Positions 8,277-17,666 of a stretch of 32,611 nt of DNA are shown here, piece by piece. The stretch's first letter is position 1. Each line of letters opens with the position of its first letter. The stretch is from assembly GCA_005881895.1 (NCBI GenBank), contig VBCG01000155.1, forward strand, positions 1 to 32,611, in the 5' to 3' direction. This stretch comes from Betaproteobacteria bacterium. GTDB lineage: Bacteria; Pseudomonadota; Gammaproteobacteria; Burkholderiales; Casimicrobiaceae. Position numbers and translations under genes: made by a program. The notes under the pieces were generated by a model. The model saw only the letters and a list, made by a program, of their open reading frames with translations. It was not told the DNA's origin and searched no databases.

Positions 8277-8690
8277 ATGATCGGCGTCCTGATCGTTGCG
8301 CACGACACCCTGGGCGACAGCCTGATCAGGGCGGTGACCCATGTGCTGGGCGCGCGGCCGCAGCAATTCGAAGCGTTCTCCGTGAAGGCGACCGACGATC
8401 CGCTGGCGCTTCTGCCAAAGGCACGCGCTGCGGTTCAAGCGCTCGACACCGGCGATGGCGTCCTCGTGTTCTCGGACATTTTCGGCGCGACACCATGCAA
8501 CCTCGCGGTCAAATTGTTGCAGCCGGGACACATTGAGGGCATTGCGGGCGTGAACCTGCCGATGCTGGTGCGCGCATTCACCTATCGAACGAAGGGGATG
8601 GACACGCTGATCAAAAAGGCCGTCTCAGGCGGCTGCGAAGGCGTGTTGCAGTTCGAAACGGTACCCGTCTATGCACCAGCGCGAAGTTGA
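8277..8690 (+). CDS. PTS EIIA component, mannose/fructose family
   Basis: The 137-residue protein begins MIGVLIVAHDTLGDSLI. His9 is the phosphorylated histidine of the EIIA-Man family, and VFSDIFGATPCNLA is the second conserved block. The family accepts phosphate from HPr and normally passes it to EIIB. No EIIB or EIIC sugar permease is nearby, so this looks like the incomplete, regulatory PTS of Betaproteobacteria. ATG 8277 places His9 as in relatives; ATG 8235 and ATG 8199 are in-frame upstream alternatives giving extra residues with no family match. The 3' end overlaps the HPr gene by 20 bp, suggesting translational coupling. Confidence 0.88.
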   Translation: MIGVLIVAHDTLGDSLIRAVTHVLGARPQQFEAFSVKATDDPLALLPKARAAVQALDTGDGVLVFSDIFGATPCNLAVKLLQPGHIEGIAGVNLPMLVRAFTYRTKGMDTLIKKAVSGGCEGVLQFETVPVYAPARS

Positions 8691-8940
8691 GATCGTCAAC
8701 AAGCTCGGCCTGCACGCGCGGGCATCAGCGAAGCTGACGCAACTCGCCGCCAAGTTTCAGAGCGAGGTGCAGATCTCGCGCAACGGGCGCAAGGTCAACG
8801 CGAAGAGCATCATGGGCGTAATGATGCTCGCCGCCGGCAGGGGATCGAAGGTGATGCTCGAAATCGAGGGCCCTGATGAAGATCAGGCGATGGCGGCGAT
8901 CTGCGCGTTGATCGGTGATAATTTCGGCGAGGGCGAATGA
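8671..8940 (+). CDS. ptsH: Phosphocarrier protein HPr
   Basis: The 89-residue protein is a standard HPr. His15 lies in NKLGLHARASAK and is phosphorylated by enzyme I. Ser46 lies in AKSIMGVMMLAAG, the site used by HPr kinase where that enzyme exists. The C-terminal GPDEDQAMAAICALI helix is typical. It relays phosphate from PtsI to the EIIA encoded just upstream, with which it overlaps by 20 bp. A second HPr-like gene follows 334 bp downstream. This copy keeps both phosphorylation sites and is likely the main one. Confidence 0.94.
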   Translation: MHQREVEIVNKLGLHARASAKLTQLAAKFQSEVQISRNGRKVNAKSIMGVMMLAAGRGSKVMLEIEGPDEDQAMAAICALIGDNFGEGE

Positions 8941-9274: not shown

Positions 9275-9547
9275 ATGCAAATACGCGAAATCGAGATTAC
9301 CCACCGGCTGGGCCTTCACGCACGCGCTTGCGCCCGCATCGTGCAACTGGCCTCGCGCTTTCGCTGCAATGTTGCGCTGGTATGCCGACGAAGACGGGCA
9401 AGCGCTCGCAACATCGTCGAGATGATGCTGCTCGCGGGCGCGTTCGGCAGTACGGTTCGCGTCGAAACGGACGGCCCGGACGAATCCGCGGCGATGGCCG
9501 CGATCGTGCGTTTATTGAAAGACGGACTTGGCGGCGCGCCGGCCTAG
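9275..9547 (+). CDS. HPr-like phosphocarrier paralogue without Ser46
   Basis: The 90-residue protein aligns along its length with the HPr encoded at 8671-8940. It starts MQIREIEITHRLGLHARACA, so the active-site His15 and its LGLHAR setting are preserved. The GPDESAAMAAIVRLL C-terminal helix is also kept. Position 46, serine in the first copy, is asparagine here (SARNIVEMMLLAG), so HPr kinase could not phosphorylate it. The middle region is arginine-rich (CRRRRASAR) where the first copy has SRNGRKVNAK. It probably arose by duplication and may act as a second phosphoryl acceptor for PtsI or as a specialised regulator like NPr. Whether it is expressed and active is not known. Confidence 0.8.
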   Translation: MQIREIEITHRLGLHARACARIVQLASRFRCNVALVCRRRRASARNIVEMMLLAGAFGSTVRVETDGPDESAAMAAIVRLLKDGLGGAPA

Positions 9548-9650: not shown

Positions 9651-11387
9651 ATGGTCAGCTTCGCGCTCCACGGCGTCGGCGTTTCGGCCGGCGTCGCGAT
9701 TGGGCGCGCCCAGCTCGTGTCACACGCGACGCTCGAGGTCGCGCACTACGCGGTTGCCACCAAACAAGTCCCCGCCGAGATCGAGCGTTTCGAGCTTGCG
9801 GTAAAGGAAGTGCAGCGCGAGCTCGAAACGCTGCACGCCGCGATGACGTCCGGCGATGTACCGGGCGAATTCGGCGCGTTTCTCGACGTCCACTGGATGA
9901 TCTTGAACGATCCGACGCTGTCCGAAGCGCCGAAGAAGATCATCGCCGAGCAGCATTGCAACGCCGAATGGGCGCTGACGCAACAGATGGGCGTCCTGGT
10001 CGAGCAGTTCGAGCAGATCGAGGACTCCTATCTGCGCGAGCGGAAGAACGACGTCGTGCAAGTGGGCGAGCGGGTCCTCAAGCGGTTGATGGGTAGGCCG
10101 GGCACGTTGCCGGTGACGAAAGCCGAAGAGCAAACGATTCTGGTGGCCCACGATCTCTCGCCGGCCGACGTCATCCAGTTCAAGCATCATCATTACGGCG
10201 CTTTCCTGACCGACCTGGGCGGCGTCACGTCACACACCGCGATCGTCGCGCGAAGCCTTAATGTGCCGGCGGTTGTCGCGACGCATAACGCGCGACAACT
10301 GATCCGCGACGGCGAGTTGCTGATCGTTGACGGCACGAACCACGTCGTCATCGTCAATCCGGACCGCGCCGTGTTGTCCGAATATCGGCTGAAGCAGAAC
10401 GAGCTCGATATCGCGCGGCAGAAGCTGAAGCGCCTGCGGACGAAGCCGGCGGAAACGATCGACGGCGTCCGCGTCGAATTGCAGGCGAACATCGAGCTTC
10501 CTGACGATCTCGAGCAGGCGCTGGAAAACGGCGCCACCGGCGTAGGACTTTTCCGCTCCGAATTTCTGTTCCTCAATCGCGCGGGCCTCCCTTCGGAGGA
10601 CGAGCAGTTCGAGGCGTATCGCGCGGTCGCGGACGGAATGGACGGCAAACCGGTCACGATACGTACGTTCGATCTCGGCGCCGACAAACACAAAGAAGGA
10701 TTGGACGGTTTGGCGCGCGTTGCGCCCAATCCCGCGCTGGGACTGCGGGCGGTCCGCTTCTGCCTCGCGGAGCCGCGGCTTTTTCTGACTCAGCTTCGCG
10801 CGATCCTCCGCGCGTCGCATTACGGCAACGTGCAAATCCTGGTCCCGATGCTCGCGTCGGCCAGCGAAATCGATCAGACGCTCGCCATGCTGGCGCAGGC
10901 GAAGGAGACGTTGCGCGAGCAAGGAGTGCCGTTCAACTCCCGCGTCGCGGTCGGCGGCATGATCGAGATTCCGGCGGCGGTGCTTGCCATGGACGCGTTC
11001 CTGAAGAGACTGGATTTCTTGTCGATCGGCACCAACGACCTGATCCAGTACACGCTCGCCGTCGATCGTGCCGACGAGGCGGTATCGCATCTTTATGATC
11101 CATTGCATCCGGCGGTCATGCGGCTCCTCTCGCTCGCGATCGGCACGGCGAAAAAGGCGAAGGTGTCGATTGCCGTTTGCGGCGAGATGGCGGGCGACCC
11201 GCTGTTGACGCGGTTGTTGCTTGGCATGGGGCTCACGAACTTCTCGATGCATCCGGCGCATCTTTTGAACGTCAAGCAGCGCGTCCTGCAAAGCGATGTG
11301 AGCGCTGCAAAACCAATCGTCGATCGGATTCGGCGTGCCGGCGAGCCGCGCAAGGTGCTGGCACTGATCGAGAAGCTGAACGCGTGA
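9651..11387 (+). CDS. ptsI: Phosphoenolpyruvate-protein phosphotransferase (enzyme I)
   Basis: The 578-residue protein is full length for enzyme I. It contains the N-terminal HPr-binding region, the phosphohistidine domain with GGVTSHTAIVARS (His195, equivalent to E. coli His189), and a C-terminal PEP-binding barrel. The barrel shows GLFRSEFLFLNR, SIGTNDLIQYTLAVDR and the active-site cysteine in VCGEMAGD. It autophosphorylates from PEP and phosphorylates HPr in the cytoplasm. It is the last gene of the gshB-EIIA-HPr-HPr2-ptsI series. A hairpin lies directly before its start. No sugar-specific EIIB/EIIC is present, so the pathway is probably regulatory. Confidence 0.95.
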   Translation: MVSFALHGVGVSAGVAIGRAQLVSHATLEVAHYAVATKQVPAEIERFELAVKEVQRELETLHAAMTSGDVPGEFGAFLDVHWMILNDPTLSEAPKKIIAEQHCNAEWALTQQMGVLVEQFEQIEDSYLRERKNDVVQVGERVLKRLMGRPGTLPVTKAEEQTILVAHDLSPADVIQFKHHHYGAFLTDLGGVTSHTAIVARSLNVPAVVATHNARQLIRDGELLIVDGTNHVVIVNPDRAVLSEYRLKQNELDIARQKLKRLRTKPAETIDGVRVELQANIELPDDLEQALENGATGVGLFRSEFLFLNRAGLPSEDEQFEAYRAVADGMDGKPVTIRTFDLGADKHKEGLDGLARVAPNPALGLRAVRFCLAEPRLFLTQLRAILRASHYGNVQILVPMLASASEIDQTLAMLAQAKETLREQGVPFNSRVAVGGMIEIPAAVLAMDAFLKRLDFLSIGTNDLIQYTLAVDRADEAVSHLYDPLHPAVMRLLSLAIGTAKKAKVSIAVCGEMAGDPLLTRLLLGMGLTNFSMHPAHLLNVKQRVLQSDVSAAKPIVDRIRRAGEPRKVLALIEKLNA

Positions 11388-11443: not shown

Positions 11444-11947
11444 ATGATTTCGATGCGCACGTGGCGTGCCTGTGCACTTGCCTGCAGTGCACTTGTTTCG
11501 ACGATCGCCGCTGCCGTCGGCGTGGGCGAACGTGCGCCGCCGTTTGCGCTGCCGACTGCCGCTGGCGATACGGTCGCGCTCGAGCGATTGCGCGGAAAAG
11601 TCGTCTACGTCGATTTCTGGGCGTCGTGGTGCGGCCCGTGCCGGCGCTCGTTTCCCTGGATGAACGCAATGAATCGCAAGTATGGCGCCCAAGGCTTGGC
11701 GATCGTCGCGATCAATGTCGACAAGAAGCGTGACGACGCGATGCAATTCTTGGGCGAAATGCCTGCCGAATTCACCGTCGTCTACGATGCGCCGGGCGCT
11801 GTCCCGGCTGCCTATGCGGTCAAAGGCATGCCGAGCTCGTACGTGATCGACCAAAGCGGAAACGTGTCGGCCGTCGAGCAAGGTTTCCGCGACGAAAGCC
11901 CCACGATGCTCGAGCAAAAGATTCGTGCGTTGCTGGCTCCGCGTTGA
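11444..11947 (+). CDS. TlpA-family thioredoxin-like protein, exported
   Basis: The 167-residue protein has a signal peptide (MISMRTWRACALACSALVST) and a thioredoxin fold beginning at GERAPPFALPTAAGD. The redox motif is WCGPC (Cys63 and Cys66) in VYVDFWASWCGPCRRSF, and the cis-proline loop is GMPSSYVID. It resembles periplasmic TlpA/ResA reductases that keep cysteines reduced, for example during cytochrome c assembly. Its stop overlaps the start of the DUF4266 lipoprotein gene (TGATG), so the two are translationally coupled. It heads a set with DUF4266, DUF3570, cytochrome c and ApbE genes, suggesting a shared envelope redox function. ATG 11453 is an alternative start three codons in. Confidence 0.88.
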   Translation: MISMRTWRACALACSALVSTIAAAVGVGERAPPFALPTAAGDTVALERLRGKVVYVDFWASWCGPCRRSFPWMNAMNRKYGAQGLAIVAINVDKKRDDAMQFLGEMPAEFTVVYDAPGAVPAAYAVKGMPSSYVIDQSGNVSAVEQGFRDESPTMLEQKIRALLAPR

Positions 11948-12192
11948 TGCGCGCGCGCGTGGGAGTCGTTCAGGCCGGCCTCTGGACGCTGTGCGTCTTG
12001 GCGCTGCTCGCGACGGCGGGTTGCGCGACGATAAGCCCTCCGCAGCCCTGGGAAAAGGGCCAGCTTGCGAAGCGCGAGATGCAATTCGATGCCGATCCAC
12101 TCGACGCGAAAGCGACGCAGCACATCTACACCAGCAAGGAAGGGGCTGGCGGCGGCTACGGTATCGGCGGGGGCGGATGTGGCTGCAATTGA
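11947..12192 (+). CDS. DUF4266 small lipoprotein
   Basis: The 81-residue protein has a signal of the lipoprotein type, GLWTLCVLALLATAGC, with Cys near residue 26 as the likely lipidated residue. The mature part contains QPWEKGQLAKREMQFD and ends in a glycine-rich tail with two cysteines (GGGGCGCN), features of the DUF4266 family. Function is not known. The ATG at 11947 overlaps the TlpA stop by one base. DUF4266 genes, to my knowledge, often sit beside DUF3570 and ApbE genes, as here. The tail cysteines could be substrates for the neighbouring thioredoxin, which is inference only. Confidence 0.78.
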   Translation: MRARVGVVQAGLWTLCVLALLATAGCATISPPQPWEKGQLAKREMQFDADPLDAKATQHIYTSKEGAGGGYGIGGGGCGCN

Positions 12193-12271
12193 AATAGGGT
12201 CAGACTCGACTTTTCCGCACATGGCGCCGATTCCGCGAGCGATCGAAGAAAAGTCGAGTCTGACCCTATTT
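12192..12271. repeat. REP-like palindromic element overlapping the DUF3570 start
   Basis: Two perfectly inverted 24-bp arms (12192-12215 and 12248-12271) flank a 32-nt loop. The arm core is TAGGGTCAGACTC, a motif common in palindromic repeats of Betaproteobacteria and also found at 24387-24486 in this window. The left arm overlaps the DUF4266 stop codon by one base. The DUF3570 ATG (12221) lies in the loop and the right arm is translated as part of its signal sequence. No transposase is nearby. Confidence 0.85.
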
Positions 12272-13351
12272 TCGGCGGCGCTCGCGCTTCCCGGCATGTT
12301 GCCGCTGGCCGTCGCGGCGCAGACCGCGCCGGATCAGGGCGTGATCGCACTCAAGTATTTCGATTATCGCGATTGGCAACCCGGCGCTAACCGGATGAGC
12401 GTACGGAGCCCGTCACTGTATGTGCTGCGGCCGCTGTCCGACGATCTCGCGCTCGAGGGGACGGTCGTTTACGACAGCATGTCGGGTGCGTCACCGCTGG
12501 CGTTCAACACGCTGTCGGGCGCGTCGGGACTCGGCGTCACCGATTACCGGACCGCCGGCGACGTGAAGGTGACCAAGTATTTCGATCGCTTCGCGCTCGG
12601 CGTCGGCGGCGCCTATTCGCGTGAGCGCGACTACATCTCGCACGCATTGTCGGTGGAAGCGCGCACGTGGACCGCGGACAAGAATCGCACATTTGCGTTC
12701 GGACTGGCCGGCACGAGCGATGCGATCCATCCCACCGATCGTCCGATCGACAACGGCCAGCGTCGAACGCTCGATTTCCTGGTCGGTGTAACCCAAGTCA
12801 TGAATGCGAATGCGATCGTGCAATCGAATATCACCTATTCGGCCGGCCACGGTGATTACTCGGACCCGTACAAATTGCTCGATACGCGGCCCGATCATCG
12901 CCGGACACTCGCGTGGCTCACGCGATTCAATCAATACGTATCGTCGGCCGACGCGACGCTCAAGCTCTTGTATCGCTATATCCACGACTCGTTCGGCGAT
13001 CACTCGCACACATTCGAGCTCGCGTGGTATCAGCCGCTGCCGAACGCGTTCGCGGTGACGCCGAGCCTCCGCTATTACACGCAAAGCGCCGCCGATTTCT
13101 TTTTCGGGCCGCCGTTCGGCAACGGCTTGGTTCCCGGCGAGCCGTACACGGCCGACACCCGGCTCTCGGCGTTTGGTGCACTGACGCCATCCATTCGCGT
13201 CGACAAGCAGTTCGATCACGGGTGGAGCGCCGATGTCTCGTTCAGCTATTACCAGCAGCGCTCGAGCTGGCGCTTGGGAGGCAGCGGCAGTGGAGGCTTG
13301 CTGCCGGTTTCAGCGCGCTGGATTTCGATCGGCGTTGCGAAGACGTTCTGA
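12221..13351 (+). CDS. DUF3570 protein, probable outer-membrane beta-barrel and possible ApbE substrate
   Basis: The 376-residue protein begins in a palindromic repeat (MAPIPRAIEEKSSLTLFSAA). A hydrophobic stretch, LALPGMLPLAVAAQ, resembles the end of a signal peptide. The rest is rich in alternating polar/aromatic strands, such as SLYVLRPLSDDLALEGTVVY and TFELAWYQPLPNAFAVTPSL, and it ends in a terminal phenylalanine (SIGVAKTF), both typical of outer-membrane barrels. DSMSGAS at residues 85-91 fits the D-x-x-(S/T)-G-A-(S/T) pattern flavinylated by ApbE, and NTLSGAS follows at 96-102. An apbE gene lies just downstream, so covalent FMN attachment is a reasonable inference. The original start may have been displaced by the repeat; ATG 12221 is the only clear nearby start. 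Confidence 0.8.
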   Translation: MAPIPRAIEEKSSLTLFSAALALPGMLPLAVAAQTAPDQGVIALKYFDYRDWQPGANRMSVRSPSLYVLRPLSDDLALEGTVVYDSMSGASPLAFNTLSGASGLGVTDYRTAGDVKVTKYFDRFALGVGGAYSRERDYISHALSVEARTWTADKNRTFAFGLAGTSDAIHPTDRPIDNGQRRTLDFLVGVTQVMNANAIVQSNITYSAGHGDYSDPYKLLDTRPDHRRTLAWLTRFNQYVSSADATLKLLYRYIHDSFGDHSHTFELAWYQPLPNAFAVTPSLRYYTQSAADFFFGPPFGNGLVPGEPYTADTRLSAFGALTPSIRVDKQFDHGWSADVSFSYYQQRSSWRLGGSGSGGLLPVSARWISIGVAKTF

Positions 13352-13872: not shown

Positions 13873-13923
13873 GGCAATTGTACGTCGCCGGCCCCACTCC
13901 TAGATTAGGTGCGTGTGACGCTG

Positions 13924-14847
13924 ATGGAATCGCCGAGATTATTTCGTTTCAAATTCCACGCGATGGCGGCGGAGCACGACCTCCAGCTGTTCGCATCGTC
14001 GGGACAACTCGCGGAGCGCGTGGCGGAGGCGGCGATTGCCGACGTCGCGCGAATCGAGGCGAAGTATTCGCGCTATCGCGATGACAGCGTTACAACACGG
14101 ATCAATCGCGCGGCAGGTCGCGAACGCGTCGCCATCGATGCCGAAACCGCCGCGCTCCTGCGTTACGCCGATCAATGTTTCCGGTTAAGCGAGGGCCGAT
14201 TCGACATCACATCGGGCGTGTTGCGGCGGGTCTGGGATTTTCGGGCGAAGCCTGCTCGCGTCCCGTCGGCCGATGCCCTGGCGGCGGCGCGGGCATCCAT
14301 CGGATGGTCGGATATCGAATGGGACGACCACGGGGTTCGCCTGCCGCGAGAGGGAATGGAGATCGACTTCGGCGGTATCGGCAAGGAATACGCGGCCGAC
14401 CGTGCGGCAACGATTTGTTCCGCGCGCGGCATCGCGCACGCATTGGTGAATCTCGGCGGTGACGTTCGCACGATCGGCGGCCAACCCGATGGCTCGCCGT
14501 GGCTTGTCGGTATTCGCGATCCCCGCGCGCCCTATCGCGCAGTTGCGCTGCTCGAAGTCGACGACGGTGCTGTTGCCACCAGCGGCGATTACGAGCGCTA
14601 TTTCGATCTCGACGGCCGGCGTTACTGTCATATCCTGGATCCGCGCAGCGGCATGCCGGTCACGCATTGGCAAAGCGTCAGCGTCGTTGCACCGCTCTGC
14701 GTCGTGGCGGGAAGCTGCGCGACGATCGCGATGCTGTTCGAAGAACGCGCGCCGGCGTTTCTCGATGCGCAATCGTTCGACTATCTCGCAATCGACGCTG
14801 CGGGCAAATTGCACCGGTCCGCACGCGCTAAGGCGGCGAGCACATGA
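13924..14847 (+). CDS. apbE: ApbE-family FAD:protein FMN transferase
   Basis: The 307-residue protein shows ApbE motifs in order: YSRYRDDSVTTRINRAAG, GRFDITSGVLRRVWDF, DFGGIGKEYAADRAA, ALVNLGGDVRTIGG, TSGDYERYF and HILDPRSGMPV. ApbE moves FMN from FAD onto a Thr/Ser of a target protein with magnesium. The usual metal-binding motif near the C-terminus (A-D-A-L-x-T) appears here as AGSCAT, so the aspartate is a glycine. No signal peptide is evident, although most ApbE act outside the cytoplasm. ATG 13924 is chosen; GTG 13909 and GTG 13915 are alternatives. The DUF3570 protein upstream carries a candidate target motif. The 3' end overlaps the convergent cytochrome/DUF5648 gene by 20 bp. Confidence 0.85.
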   Translation: MESPRLFRFKFHAMAAEHDLQLFASSGQLAERVAEAAIADVARIEAKYSRYRDDSVTTRINRAAGRERVAIDAETAALLRYADQCFRLSEGRFDITSGVLRRVWDFRAKPARVPSADALAAARASIGWSDIEWDDHGVRLPREGMEIDFGGIGKEYAADRAATICSARGIAHALVNLGGDVRTIGGQPDGSPWLVGIRDPRAPYRAVALLEVDDGAVATSGDYERYFDLDGRRYCHILDPRSGMPVTHWQSVSVVAPLCVVAGSCATIAMLFEERAPAFLDAQSFDYLAIDAAGKLHRSARAKAAST

Positions 14848-15705
14848 TGACGCCGAGCGGACCGTATCCTTCCGGGATCCAGCCCTGCGCGATCATCTGC
14901 ATGCGAATCGCTGCGTCGGTCGTGTAGCGATGATTGGGCGCTGCGCCCTGACCATTGTTGTAGAGCCGATAGACCGCAAGCGCGTTGGCCGGACACGAGC
15001 CATCGGCGAGCACAGCCGGCATGACGTTGAACACGTCGCCCTCGTAGAGCCAATCGGGATTGCTCTTGACGATCGCGCATTCGCTCGCTGCGGGCGTATA
15101 GAAGTGCGAGCTCTTGGGTGCGAACGACGTGCTGAAAAAACGGCAGACCGGCACACTTCCCATCGGCGCGCTCGTCGACGGATAAACGTTGAATGAGCGG
15201 CCGGTGCGCGACCAGCCGGTGAACGTGCCGTTGCCGAGCTTCGTGATCTCGTCGGCAATCGTCGTGACGAAGTAGTGATCGAAGCTCGTGTGGTGGTACT
15301 CGACCACAGCGACGGTCGGCGGCGCGACGCCGAAGACCTGGCCGAGGTAGGCTGCAATGTCGGCGATCATCGCGTCCCATTGCGTCGTATTTTGGATGTA
15401 CAGCGGATAGAGCAGGTCGTACATGTCCGTCTTGCCGTCGGTGTAGGCACCCGGCGTCGTGATCCCGCCGATGATGAGATCGGCGCGATTCGCGCCGGAC
15501 TTGACGCCCCCCGACCCCGTGTCGCGGTATTGGTCCTTCGTGGGATCGGGGTTGTGGCAATCCGCGCACGATGTGGAAACGATTGGTAATAGATTGCGCC
15601 ATTGGCGGCGTTTTGCGCATCTGACGAGAAACCCGTGATGAGCGATAGCATCGCAACGATGCGGGCCACCGAGCGAACCGCGGCGATTTCCCAATCGCGG
15701 GGCAT
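14828..15705 (-). pseudogene. Cytochrome c-like / DUF5648 fusion gene, frameshifted
   Basis: Reading leftward from ATG 15705, the first frame gives a signal-like start and a cytochrome N-terminus (SSDAQNAANGAIYYQS). Near 15580 the frame is lost, and the haem motif CADCH (15554-15568) appears in another frame as VSTSCADCHNPDPTKD. That frame stays open to the stop at 14828. A single missing base would restore QS-VSTSCADCH and give about 292 residues. The second half (VVEYHHTSFDHYFVTTIADE, SHFYTPAASECAIV, WIPEGYGPLGVIMC) matches the DUF5648 repeat, an extracellular domain of unknown function common in Betaproteobacteria. It is either a recent pseudogene or a one-base sequence error. It overlaps the 3' end of apbE. 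Confidence 0.78.
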
Positions 15706-15831: not shown

Positions 15832-15848
15832 GTTCCCGGTTGTTGCCC

Positions 15849-17666
15849 ATGATGCCGTCGTTTTCCGCCACCACCGTCGCATCCGATACGCCACTATCCG
15901 ACGCGTCTGCTGCGCACAGCGTCGGCATCGCGCGCCCGCAGATCGCCCGCTTTGAAACGCCGCTGCCGCTGGCATGCGGTCGCGCGCTTTCGCAGTACGA
16001 GCTCGCTTATGAGACCTACGGCGAGCTGAATGCCGCGCGCAGCAACGCCGTGCTGGTCTGCCATGCGCTGAACGCGTCGCATCACGTTGCCGGTTACTAC
16101 GCCGACGACCCGAACAATGTCGGTTGGTGGGACAACATGATCGGCCCCGGCAAGCCGCTCGACACCAATCGCTTCTTCGTCGTCGGCGTCAACAATCTAG
16201 GGAGTTGCTTCGGTTCGACTGGCCCGCAATCGATCGATCCGCAAACCGGACGGCCGTATGGCGCCGATTTCCCGCTCGTCACCGTCGAGGATTGGGTCGA
16301 TGCGCAAGCGCGCCTCGCCGACCATCTCGGAATCGAGCGTTGGGCCGCCGCCATGGGCGGCAGCCTCGGGGGAATGCAAGCGCTGGCGTGGGCGACGCGA
16401 TTTCCGACACGCATTCGCCACGCGCTGGTCATCGCGGCTGCGCCCAATTTGTCCGCCGAGAACATCGCGTTCAATGAAGTGGCGCGCCAAGCGATCATGA
16501 CCGACCCCGATTTCCACGGCGGCGACTATTACGCGCATCGCGCGACGCCGCGCCGAGGACTGCGCGTTGCCCGCATGATCGGCCACATCACGTACTTGTC
16601 GGATGAGCAAATGGAGGCGAAATTCGGGCGCCAGCTGCGCGACGGCATCAATTTTTCGTTTGCGCCCGAATTCCAGATCGAATCGTACCTCCGTTATCAA
16701 GGCGAGAAATTCGCCGACTACTACGATGCGAACACGTACCTGCGCATCACCAAGGCGCTCGATTACTTCGACCCGGCGAGTGCGCACGGCGGCGATCTGG
16801 CGCGCTCGCTGTCGACGGCGACGTGCGAATTTCTGGTGGCGGCATTTACCACCGATTGGCGCTTCCCGGCTGCGCGATCGCGCGAAATCGTGAAAGCGCT
16901 CGTCCGCAACAAGCGCCGCCTTTCCTACGCGGAGATCGTCGCGCCGCACGGTCACGACGCGTTCCTTCTCGACGACCGTCACTATCACGCTGTCGTGCGC
17001 GCGTATTTCGATCGAATCGCCGCCGAGACTGAGCCTTCGTCGCCGAAGCCGCGCCGACTATCGCGATCGATGCAGACCAATGGCGTTGCGCGCGCTGATT
17101 ACGCGACGATCGCGCAATGGATCGGCTCGGGTGCGCGCGTGCTGGACCTCGGGTGCGGCGACGGGAGCCTGCTTGCGTACCTGCGCACCGCGCGTGGCGC
17201 GACGGGCTATGGGATCGAAATCGCCAATGCCGGCGTGCTCGCCAGCCTCGAAAACGGTATCGATGTCATCCAGAGCGACTTGGAGCGCGGGCTTGCCGGC
17301 TTCGACGATGCGTCATTCGACTGCGTGATTCTGTCGCAGACATTGCAGGCGATGCGCCATGTCGAGGTCATCGTCGCGGAAATGCTGCGCGTCGGGCGCG
17401 AAGCGATCGTGACCTTTCCCAATTTCGGACACTGGTCGCATCGCGCGCAAATCATGCGCGGCCGGATGCCAGTGTCGAAATCGTTGCCGTATCAGTGGTA
17501 CGACACGCCGAATATCCATTTGTGCACGGTGGCGGACTTCGATGCATTCCTCGCGGCGCGCAAATACGTTCTGCAAGACCGTGTCGTGCTCGCCGGCCGC
17601 AAGCGCGTGCGCATGCTTCCCAACTTGCTTGGCGAGCTCGCAATCTATCGTTTCCGGCGCGGCTAG
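15849..17666 (+). CDS. metX-metW: Homoserine O-acyltransferase fused to MetW methyltransferase-like protein
   Basis: One uninterrupted frame of 605 residues joins two proteins usually encoded separately. Residues about 30-390 are MetX, an alpha/beta hydrolase with nucleophile Ser172 in [13 protein letters not shown], conserved [12 protein letters not shown], and the histidine block [12 protein letters not shown]. It acylates homoserine in methionine synthesis; acetyl- versus succinyl-CoA use cannot be told by eye. Residues 408-605 are MetW, with SAM-binding [12 protein letters not shown] and [20 protein letters not shown]. An in-frame ATG at 17070 begins a stretch of exactly normal MetW length (198 residues), so a separate MetW could also be made by internal initiation. 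ATG 15849 or 15852 starts the protein, without a clear Shine-Dalgarno. An attenuator-like hairpin precedes it. Confidence 0.9.

Follow-up and report, generated by a model that had tools for sequence, protein, structure and literature searches.

How does a flavin come to be attached to a protein of the outer membrane when the enzyme that would attach it carries no recognisable export signal? The question is raised by a gene cluster in the window, the 32,611-nucleotide stretch analysed here, which is the whole of one contig (C63) of a betaproteobacterial genome of 4.29 Mb in 260 contigs (96% complete). ApbE flavinylation of envelope proteins is usually placed outside the cytosol, with export of FAD needed. 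The first-pass annotation had noticed a flavinylation motif in a DUF3570 protein encoded near an apbE gene, and had proposed that this protein is a covalently flavinylated redox protein of the envelope. The features concerned are:

11444-11947, plus strand: TlpA-like thioredoxin (Redoxin/AhpC-TSA; PF08534, 85.7 bits), with the CxxC motif CGPC and a hydrophobic N-terminus
11944-12192, plus strand: DUF4266 small lipoprotein-like protein (PF14086, 79 bits), with a Gly-rich C-terminus and CGCN (CxC) as last residues
12179-13351 (from GTG 12179) or 12221-13351 (from ATG 12221), plus strand: DUF3570 protein (PF12094), predicted outer-membrane beta-barrel
12194-12214 and 12249-12269, strand not assigned: arms of an inverted-repeat element, at the DUF3570 start and signal-peptide region
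12473-12493 (residues 85-91, counted from ATG 12221), plus strand: DSMSGAS, first flavinylation motif, with FMN predicted at its final Ser; located where strand 3 ends and in the beta3-beta4 loop
12506-12526 (residues 96-102, same count), plus strand: NTLSGAS, second flavinylation motif and predicted site of another FMN, also in the beta3-beta4 loop
13360-13872, antisense to the cluster: cytochrome c-like gene, scoring under the Pfam cut-offs
13909-14847, plus strand: ApbE flavin transferase without signal peptide (PF02424, 270 bits)

The DUF3570 protein belongs to its family with a profile score of 207.3 bits, against a curated cut-off of 25. Its two motifs lie where they had been placed in the first reading, 11 residues apart, and the downstream gene, then put at about 570 bp, is confirmed as apbE by its profile and starts at 13909, 557 bp from DUF3570. 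The TlpA and DUF4266 neighbours named at the same time are both matched by Pfam profiles. The genes for these two proteins share 4 bp, provided that DUF4266 begins at TTG 11944. A GTG at 12179, in frame with DUF3570, sits within the last DUF4266 codons (12179-12192, encoding the C-terminal CGCN and the stop). In a relative (L107), inspection by eye of the stretch from the DUF4266 stop to the hydrophobic core showed no in-frame ATG, GTG or TTG, and in that relative the start of DUF3570 likely overlaps the end of DUF4266; by comparison with relatives, GTG 12179 is a possible start in the window as well. The beginning of the gene is also occupied by a 76-bp inverted repeat (12194-12269), with arms like ATAGGGTCAGACTCGACTTTT, through which the DUF3570 reading frame stays open. 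The arm has 86 matches in the genome with at most three mismatches, vs none for a reversed control pattern, and many of them form head-to-head pairs about 55 bp apart. The repeat is a dispersed palindromic element that is partly read as protein, and it was not seen at that place in the relatives compared.

Other genes of the window are recorded here for completeness. Tandem HPr-like reading frames, recognised by eye (8671-8940 and 9275-9547), stand upstream of a PTS enzyme I-like gene (9651-11387). A DUF5648 protein (14828-15694, 62 bits), encoded on the strand opposite to apbE and at the 3' end of that gene, has a haem-type CADCH motif in its N-terminal part, also seen by eye. A single open frame at 15840-17666 encodes an alpha/beta-hydrolase fused to MetW (PF07021, 222 bits); the hydrolase is presumably of the MetX type.

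The flavinylation motif is not a chance product of composition: the pattern D..[ST]GA[ST] turns up in 0.7% of 20,000 shuffles of the window DUF3570 protein, and the strict form [DE]xx[ST]GA[ST] is present in 141 of the 160 DUF3570 sequences (from 163 unique ones) that align without gaps at the motif, which together rule out a chance origin. Among these 160, the first position is Asp in 142 and Glu in 18, and the last is Ser in 123 and Thr in 37. Two [ST]GA[ST] sites within 60 residues of each other occur in 0.1% of the 20,000 shuffles, and in 86 of the 163 unique sequences. The motif is thus conserved across the family, as the proposal of flavinylation would have it. That the motif should also track an adjacent apbE was considered and not retained: strict motifs stand mostly beside apbE (84 with, 27 without) and non-strict ones are evenly split (10 and 10), but the test is weak, as contig ends have cut some of the loci counted as lacking the gene. 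All 12 genomes searched among those with no adjacent apbE carry ApbE nearby or elsewhere.

The idea that DUF3570 is flavinylated by its ApbE was already published in 2021 (PMC8238504), and the window is a further member of this group. In Chlorobium luteolum, the cognate ApbE flavinylates the DUF3570 protein at two sites of the form [S/T]GA[S/T], and both serines had to be replaced to abolish the modification (Meheust et al. 2021, eLife, PMC8238504). The pair was co-expressed in E. coli, apparently without signal peptides according to the methods, and the DUF3570 protein was found mostly in the pellet and purified under denaturing conditions (PMC8238504). Since the pelleted, denatured protein was flavinylated, neither export nor a native barrel seems to be needed. 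The methods speak of a signal-peptide-truncated cognate ApbE and of a similar strategy for C. luteolum, a wording that may imply a signal peptide in that enzyme (PMC8238504). With the motif, the operon partners and this precedent in its support, the flavinylation first proposed for the window is upheld; by analogy, its DUF3570 protein very probably carries two covalently attached flavins.

The ApbE of the window is the less expected element. Only 18 residues separate the preceding in-frame stop from its AM motif, they contain no hydrophobic stretch, and neither a signal peptide nor a lipobox was found. A signal peptide overlooked upstream was considered and rejected: the stop-to-stop frame opens at 13909, and the antisense gene is 36 bp away. 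For a wider comparison, N-termini were scored by hydropathy, taking the most hydrophobic 12-residue stretch that follows any possible start codon before the AM motif, with a cut-off of 2.0, and a tree was built from 183 unique ApbE domains, each with no fewer than 220 residues and 150 bits. A clade linked to DUF3570 takes up 124 of the 183, with moderate support (0.73). It contains all 106 DUF3570-adjacent ApbEs in the tree, outside which are those of genomes G593, G671 and G770 (the first two truncated in loci L296 and L299). The remaining 18 members of the clade all belong to genomes with DUF3570; among them are the window's own copy (L215) and an adjacent copy that was seen twice. Among the matches listed, clade hosts include Geothrix rubra and other Holophagaceae, which we take to be Acidobacteriota, Pelagicoccus, assumed to belong to the Verrucomicrobiota, and members of the Chlorobi and Pseudomonadota. 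None of the 124 clade members has a signal-peptide-like N-terminus, vs 43 of the 59 ApbEs outside; a relaxed cut-off of 1.6 gives 3 of 124 vs 49 of 59. Fewer than 30 residues precede the AM motif in 68 clade members. Of the ten outside ApbEs below 1.6, five are of a short PLLGT type that looks cytosolic too. The same test applied to neighbours reaches 2.0 in 100 of 120 TlpA and 77 of 128 DUF4266 proteins; it misses real signal peptides, as among 133 DUF3570 reading frames 52 get to 2.0 and 95 to 1.6 (the window protein has a hydrophobic core of 1.92). No second, exported ApbE was found in the window genome, which has one ApbE match only in an assembly that is 96% complete, and no mention of a signal-less DUF3570-linked ApbE was found in the open-access literature searched.

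The distribution of the two genes ties this clade to DUF3570. The family (PF12094) turned up in 21 of 200 genomes from the window's order, in 29 of 398 from its phylum and in 54 of 198 from the phylum to which a Chlorobiaceae record (G577) belongs; a pattern scan for relatives gave at least 517 matches, from which 80 named loci were kept. Every one of the 48 DUF3570 genomes searched has at least one ApbE. In the order, 19 of the 200 genomes hold an ApbE scoring at least 330 bits against the clade profile (A3), the next being a 211-bit fragment (G163) followed by a match of 188 bits, and 18 of these 19 fall among the 21 DUF3570 genomes, including three in which the gene is unlinked (G069, G113, G189). 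The remaining three of the 21 (G021, G032, G077) each carry, next to DUF3570, a divergent ApbE that scores 154-166 bits, has no signal peptide and falls inside the clade in the tree. The 19th genome (G080) has a clade ApbE, and DUF3570 was not found in it in the same 200-genome search; neither DUF3570 nor DUF4266 is present in the 16 kb analysed at that locus (L330). In G163, of the window's own family, a partial clade ApbE lies near a contig end (L331), with no DUF3570 found, and is perhaps a relic. Exactly one ApbE is present in 14 of the 48 genomes, and it is of the clade type in 12, the window included; in the other two it has a signal peptide (G200) or falls outside the clade (G545). Profile searches of these 12 found neither FMN_bind nor DUF2271 in any, and NQR2_RnfD in one (G038, 47 bits, partial); six comparison genomes searched alongside gave FMN_bind in 5, DUF2271 in 2 and NQR2_RnfD in 4. 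In 11 of the 12, therefore, DUF3570 is the sole recognised substrate among the families searched, and the sole ApbE has no export signal.

This arrangement has exceptions. In three genomes of the GTDB phylum that includes Chlorobi, apparently Bacteroidota (G593, G671, G770), the ApbE adjacent to DUF3570 has a signal peptide, as judged by eye, so the signal-less route is not universal; the DUF3570 motif is degenerate in the first two. These are the three genomes looked at out of roughly 20 lower-scoring ones in the phylum search, and exported ApbEs may be common beside DUF3570 there. A second proteobacterial DUF3570 group (L062, L065, L080, L081, L085, L087-L090) lacks a clade ApbE within 3.5 kb, and the motif Gly is replaced by Ser or Asn in 6 of its 9 members. 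Most ApbEs in the genomes of this group carry signal peptides. With signal peptides on the ApbEs of these groups, two kinds of ApbE serve DUF3570. The clusters of the second group share genes for an HZS_alpha-domain protein (L062, L085; by Pfam) and TPR proteins (L062), and also SH3-domain and small OMP genes. A set of DUF3570 homologues of about 850-1230 residues, many from Methylococcales (L091-L093, L133, L138, L140, L143, L182, L183 and others), has long insertions, in part with extra [ST]GA[ST] sites.

The substrate, in turn, is predicted to be a barrel, as the first-pass annotation had guessed from the terminal Phe and the strand-rich sequence. AlphaFold, given an alignment of 47 of 52 DUF3570 reading frames (four very long and one split frame were excluded), models the window protein as a 16-stranded barrel with pLDDT 92.5 and pTM 0.88, a 3-residue strand at 244-246 being left uncounted. 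A Chlorobi-type homologue, 72% identical to the DUF3570 protein of the Chlorobiaceae record, gives a 16-stranded barrel as well (pLDDT 90.5, pTM 0.86). The solved structures that match the model are outer-membrane barrels, mostly aligned end to end, and include porins, PelB, BcsC and BamA (VIA Z up to 22.5). The barrel is closed with an even number of strands, and the C-terminal residue is Phe. Motif 1 is placed at the end of strand 3 and motif 2 inside the beta3-beta4 loop, where model confidence is low (model residues 59-71). The loops from odd to even strands amount to 93 residues, vs 30 for the even-to-odd turns. Both termini of outer-membrane barrels are periplasmic as a general rule, and with the termini so taken the beta3-beta4 loop would be extracellular. 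Of the 40 best-conserved residues of the window model 39 could be placed, and 35 of them are in the outer half, vs 22.6 expected (p = 0.0000 as printed, from 20,000 samplings that ignore spatial clustering); in the Chlorobi-type model the count is 31 of 39, vs 24.3 expected (p about 0.013, spatial clustering likewise ignored). Extracellular loops of outer-membrane barrels are usually variable, and conserved residues on this side therefore indicate a working site there. Both flavin sites are accordingly placed by the models, as a prediction, on the long-loop, extracellular side of the barrel. No mention of the barrel topology of DUF3570 or of the side of its sites was found in the open-access literature searched.

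The partners were surveyed around 133 DUF3570 reading frames (the window and L061-L190), among which contig ends cut some loci, two are the same contig (L095, L111) and two probably the same genome (L104, L115). DUF4266 neighbours 128 of them and a TlpA-like protein 116, and 96 have an ApbE at a distance of at most 3.5 kb. The C-terminal CxC of DUF4266 is found in 128 of 128, and a lipobox-like Cys, by a permissive pattern, in 108. No further constant neighbour emerged across 130 loci, the commonest other families being present in 21 and 20. The cytochrome c-like gene, which the first reading had counted in the cluster, does not hold its place: it is antisense, scores under the cut-offs and lies outside the conserved cluster, and apbE is usually nearer DUF3570 in relatives, with a midpoint distance of 1.0-1.2 kb vs 1.7 kb in the window. 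Given this wider spacing, the gene seems to be a local insertion outside the system. A full DsbD adjoins apbE in the genome of the Chlorobiaceae record (L332); the two DsbD_TM matches found in the window genome (66.6 and 42.8 bits) lie on contigs other than this one, and the cluster has no DsbD. Other neighbours were noted in passing: a 944-residue protein after apbE (L106:4074-6908) that combines RTX calcium-binding repeats with a Big_5 domain and to which a family in 10 loci is linked by BLAST, and a protein directly after DUF3570 in L122 without a Pfam match.

The current model proposes that the signal-less ApbE would take FMN from cytosolic FAD and attach it to the final Ser of DSMSGAS while the DUF3570 precursor is still unfolded, and that the final Ser of NTLSGAS would probably be loaded likewise. 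Sec would then export the flavinylated precursor, which would enter the outer membrane and form a 16-stranded barrel there, bringing two FMNs to the extracellular-side rim, near conserved Arg, Asp, Glu, His and Tyr residues. More speculatively, electrons might pass, in either direction, between the periplasmic TlpA-like thioredoxin and the C-terminal CxC of the DUF4266 lipoprotein, and DUF4266 might link this exchange to the FMNs across the barrel, allowing the cell to reduce or oxidise something outside; this relay is a guess from the constant neighbours. Barrel topology, outer-side site and signal-less ApbE clade together make loading before export the leading mechanism, and attachment of FMN in the cytosol, with subsequent export of the modified chain as for the protein modified by HMW1C, is by analogy the most likely course. 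In the explanation as a whole, from cytosolic loading and Sec export to the outer-side site and the TlpA-DUF4266 relay, we have moderate confidence. We also lean, a little less firmly, towards its general form, in which a dedicated signal-less ApbE clade of Pseudomonadota, Chlorobi, Acidobacteriota and Verrucomicrobiota loads DUF3570 with FMN inside the cytosol, and the flavin passes Sec and BAM on the protein to reach an extracellular-side redox site of the 16-stranded barrel.

It could be argued that ApbE reaches the periplasm without a recognisable signal, by a non-classical route or carried by a partner, and modifies DUF3570 before barrel assembly. Most bacterial ApbEs seem to be secreted (PMC12052999), and exported ApbEs are present in the DUF3570 clusters of the three apparent Bacteroidota genomes. 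However, a signal-peptide-like N-terminus is seen in 0 of the 124 clade ApbEs, 68 of which have fewer than 30 residues of room for one, and the nearby TlpA mostly passes the same test (100 of 120), so that we consider this route unlikely. A cytosolic enzyme might instead serve another cytosolic substrate and leave the window DUF3570 unflavinylated, as the cytosolic ApbE of Klebsiella pneumoniae serves a soluble fumarate reductase (PMC12052999). This is very improbable in view of the conserved DUF3570 motif, the co-occurrence of clade ApbE with DUF3570 even when unlinked, and the 0 of 12 counts for FMN_bind and DUF2271 in the genomes with a clade ApbE only.

A different objection concerns not the loading but the place of the flavins, which might face the lumen or periplasm and take part in envelope thiol redox only, for example in an oxidase for TlpA or DUF4266. 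The constancy of TlpA and of the CxC protein DUF4266 as partners, and the DsbD that adjoins apbE in L332, would fit such a role; in both models, however, the long-loop side holds the motif loop together with the majority of the best-conserved residues, and we regard such a role as somewhat unlikely. Loading in the cytosol followed by display on the outer side is thus retained as the preferred reading.

If true, cytosolic loading explains how outer-side barrel sites receive a flavin without export of FAD: the flavin would cross the inner membrane on an unfolded chain and end in the outer membrane. This would revise the view of how extracytosolic flavoproteins can be made, and a barrel with covalent FMN outside would offer a possible way, without haem, of moving electrons across the outer membrane.

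With the clusters described in 2021, the window shares the family, the two [S/T]GA[S/T] motifs and the thioredoxin-like, DUF4266 and ApbE partners (Meheust et al. 2021). Such clusters number 227 with DsbD and 316 without, their function being left open in the passages concerned, and the window, with no adjoining DsbD, resembles the 316 (PMC8238504). In the open-access literature searched, this is the sole paper naming DUF3570 and DUF4266. In the passages concerned the systems are treated as extracytosolic, with no discussion of a barrel fold, of the side of the sites or of a missing signal peptide; the words barrel and porin occur 0 times in its main text, figures excluded (PMC8238504). What the present analysis adds to that work is the predicted barrel topology, the predicted position of the sites on the outer side, and an ApbE clade without recognisable signal peptides.

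Exported ApbEs that act on NqrB, NqrC, RnfG or other FMN_bind proteins perform the same chemistry at the same D-x-x-[S/T]-G-A-[S/T] motif (PMC12052999). Those of the NqrB/NqrC/RnfG type are secreted or lipid-anchored and their substrates are not barrels, whereas the ApbE of the window is signal-less and its substrate is a predicted barrel. The cytosolic ApbE of K. pneumoniae is without a signal peptide, like that of the window, but its substrate is a soluble cytosolic fumarate reductase and not, as predicted here, an outer-membrane protein (PMC12052999).

HMW1C offers another comparison, although it adds sugar and ApbE adds flavin. The two enzymes belong to unrelated families, and no Sec substrate is known to us to take FMN with it across the translocon. 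The likeness lies in the order of events, since HMW1 is glycosylated in the cytoplasm ahead of Sec export, and in both cases a cytosolic enzyme modifies, or in the window would modify, a protein that is later exported by Sec (PMC3983070).
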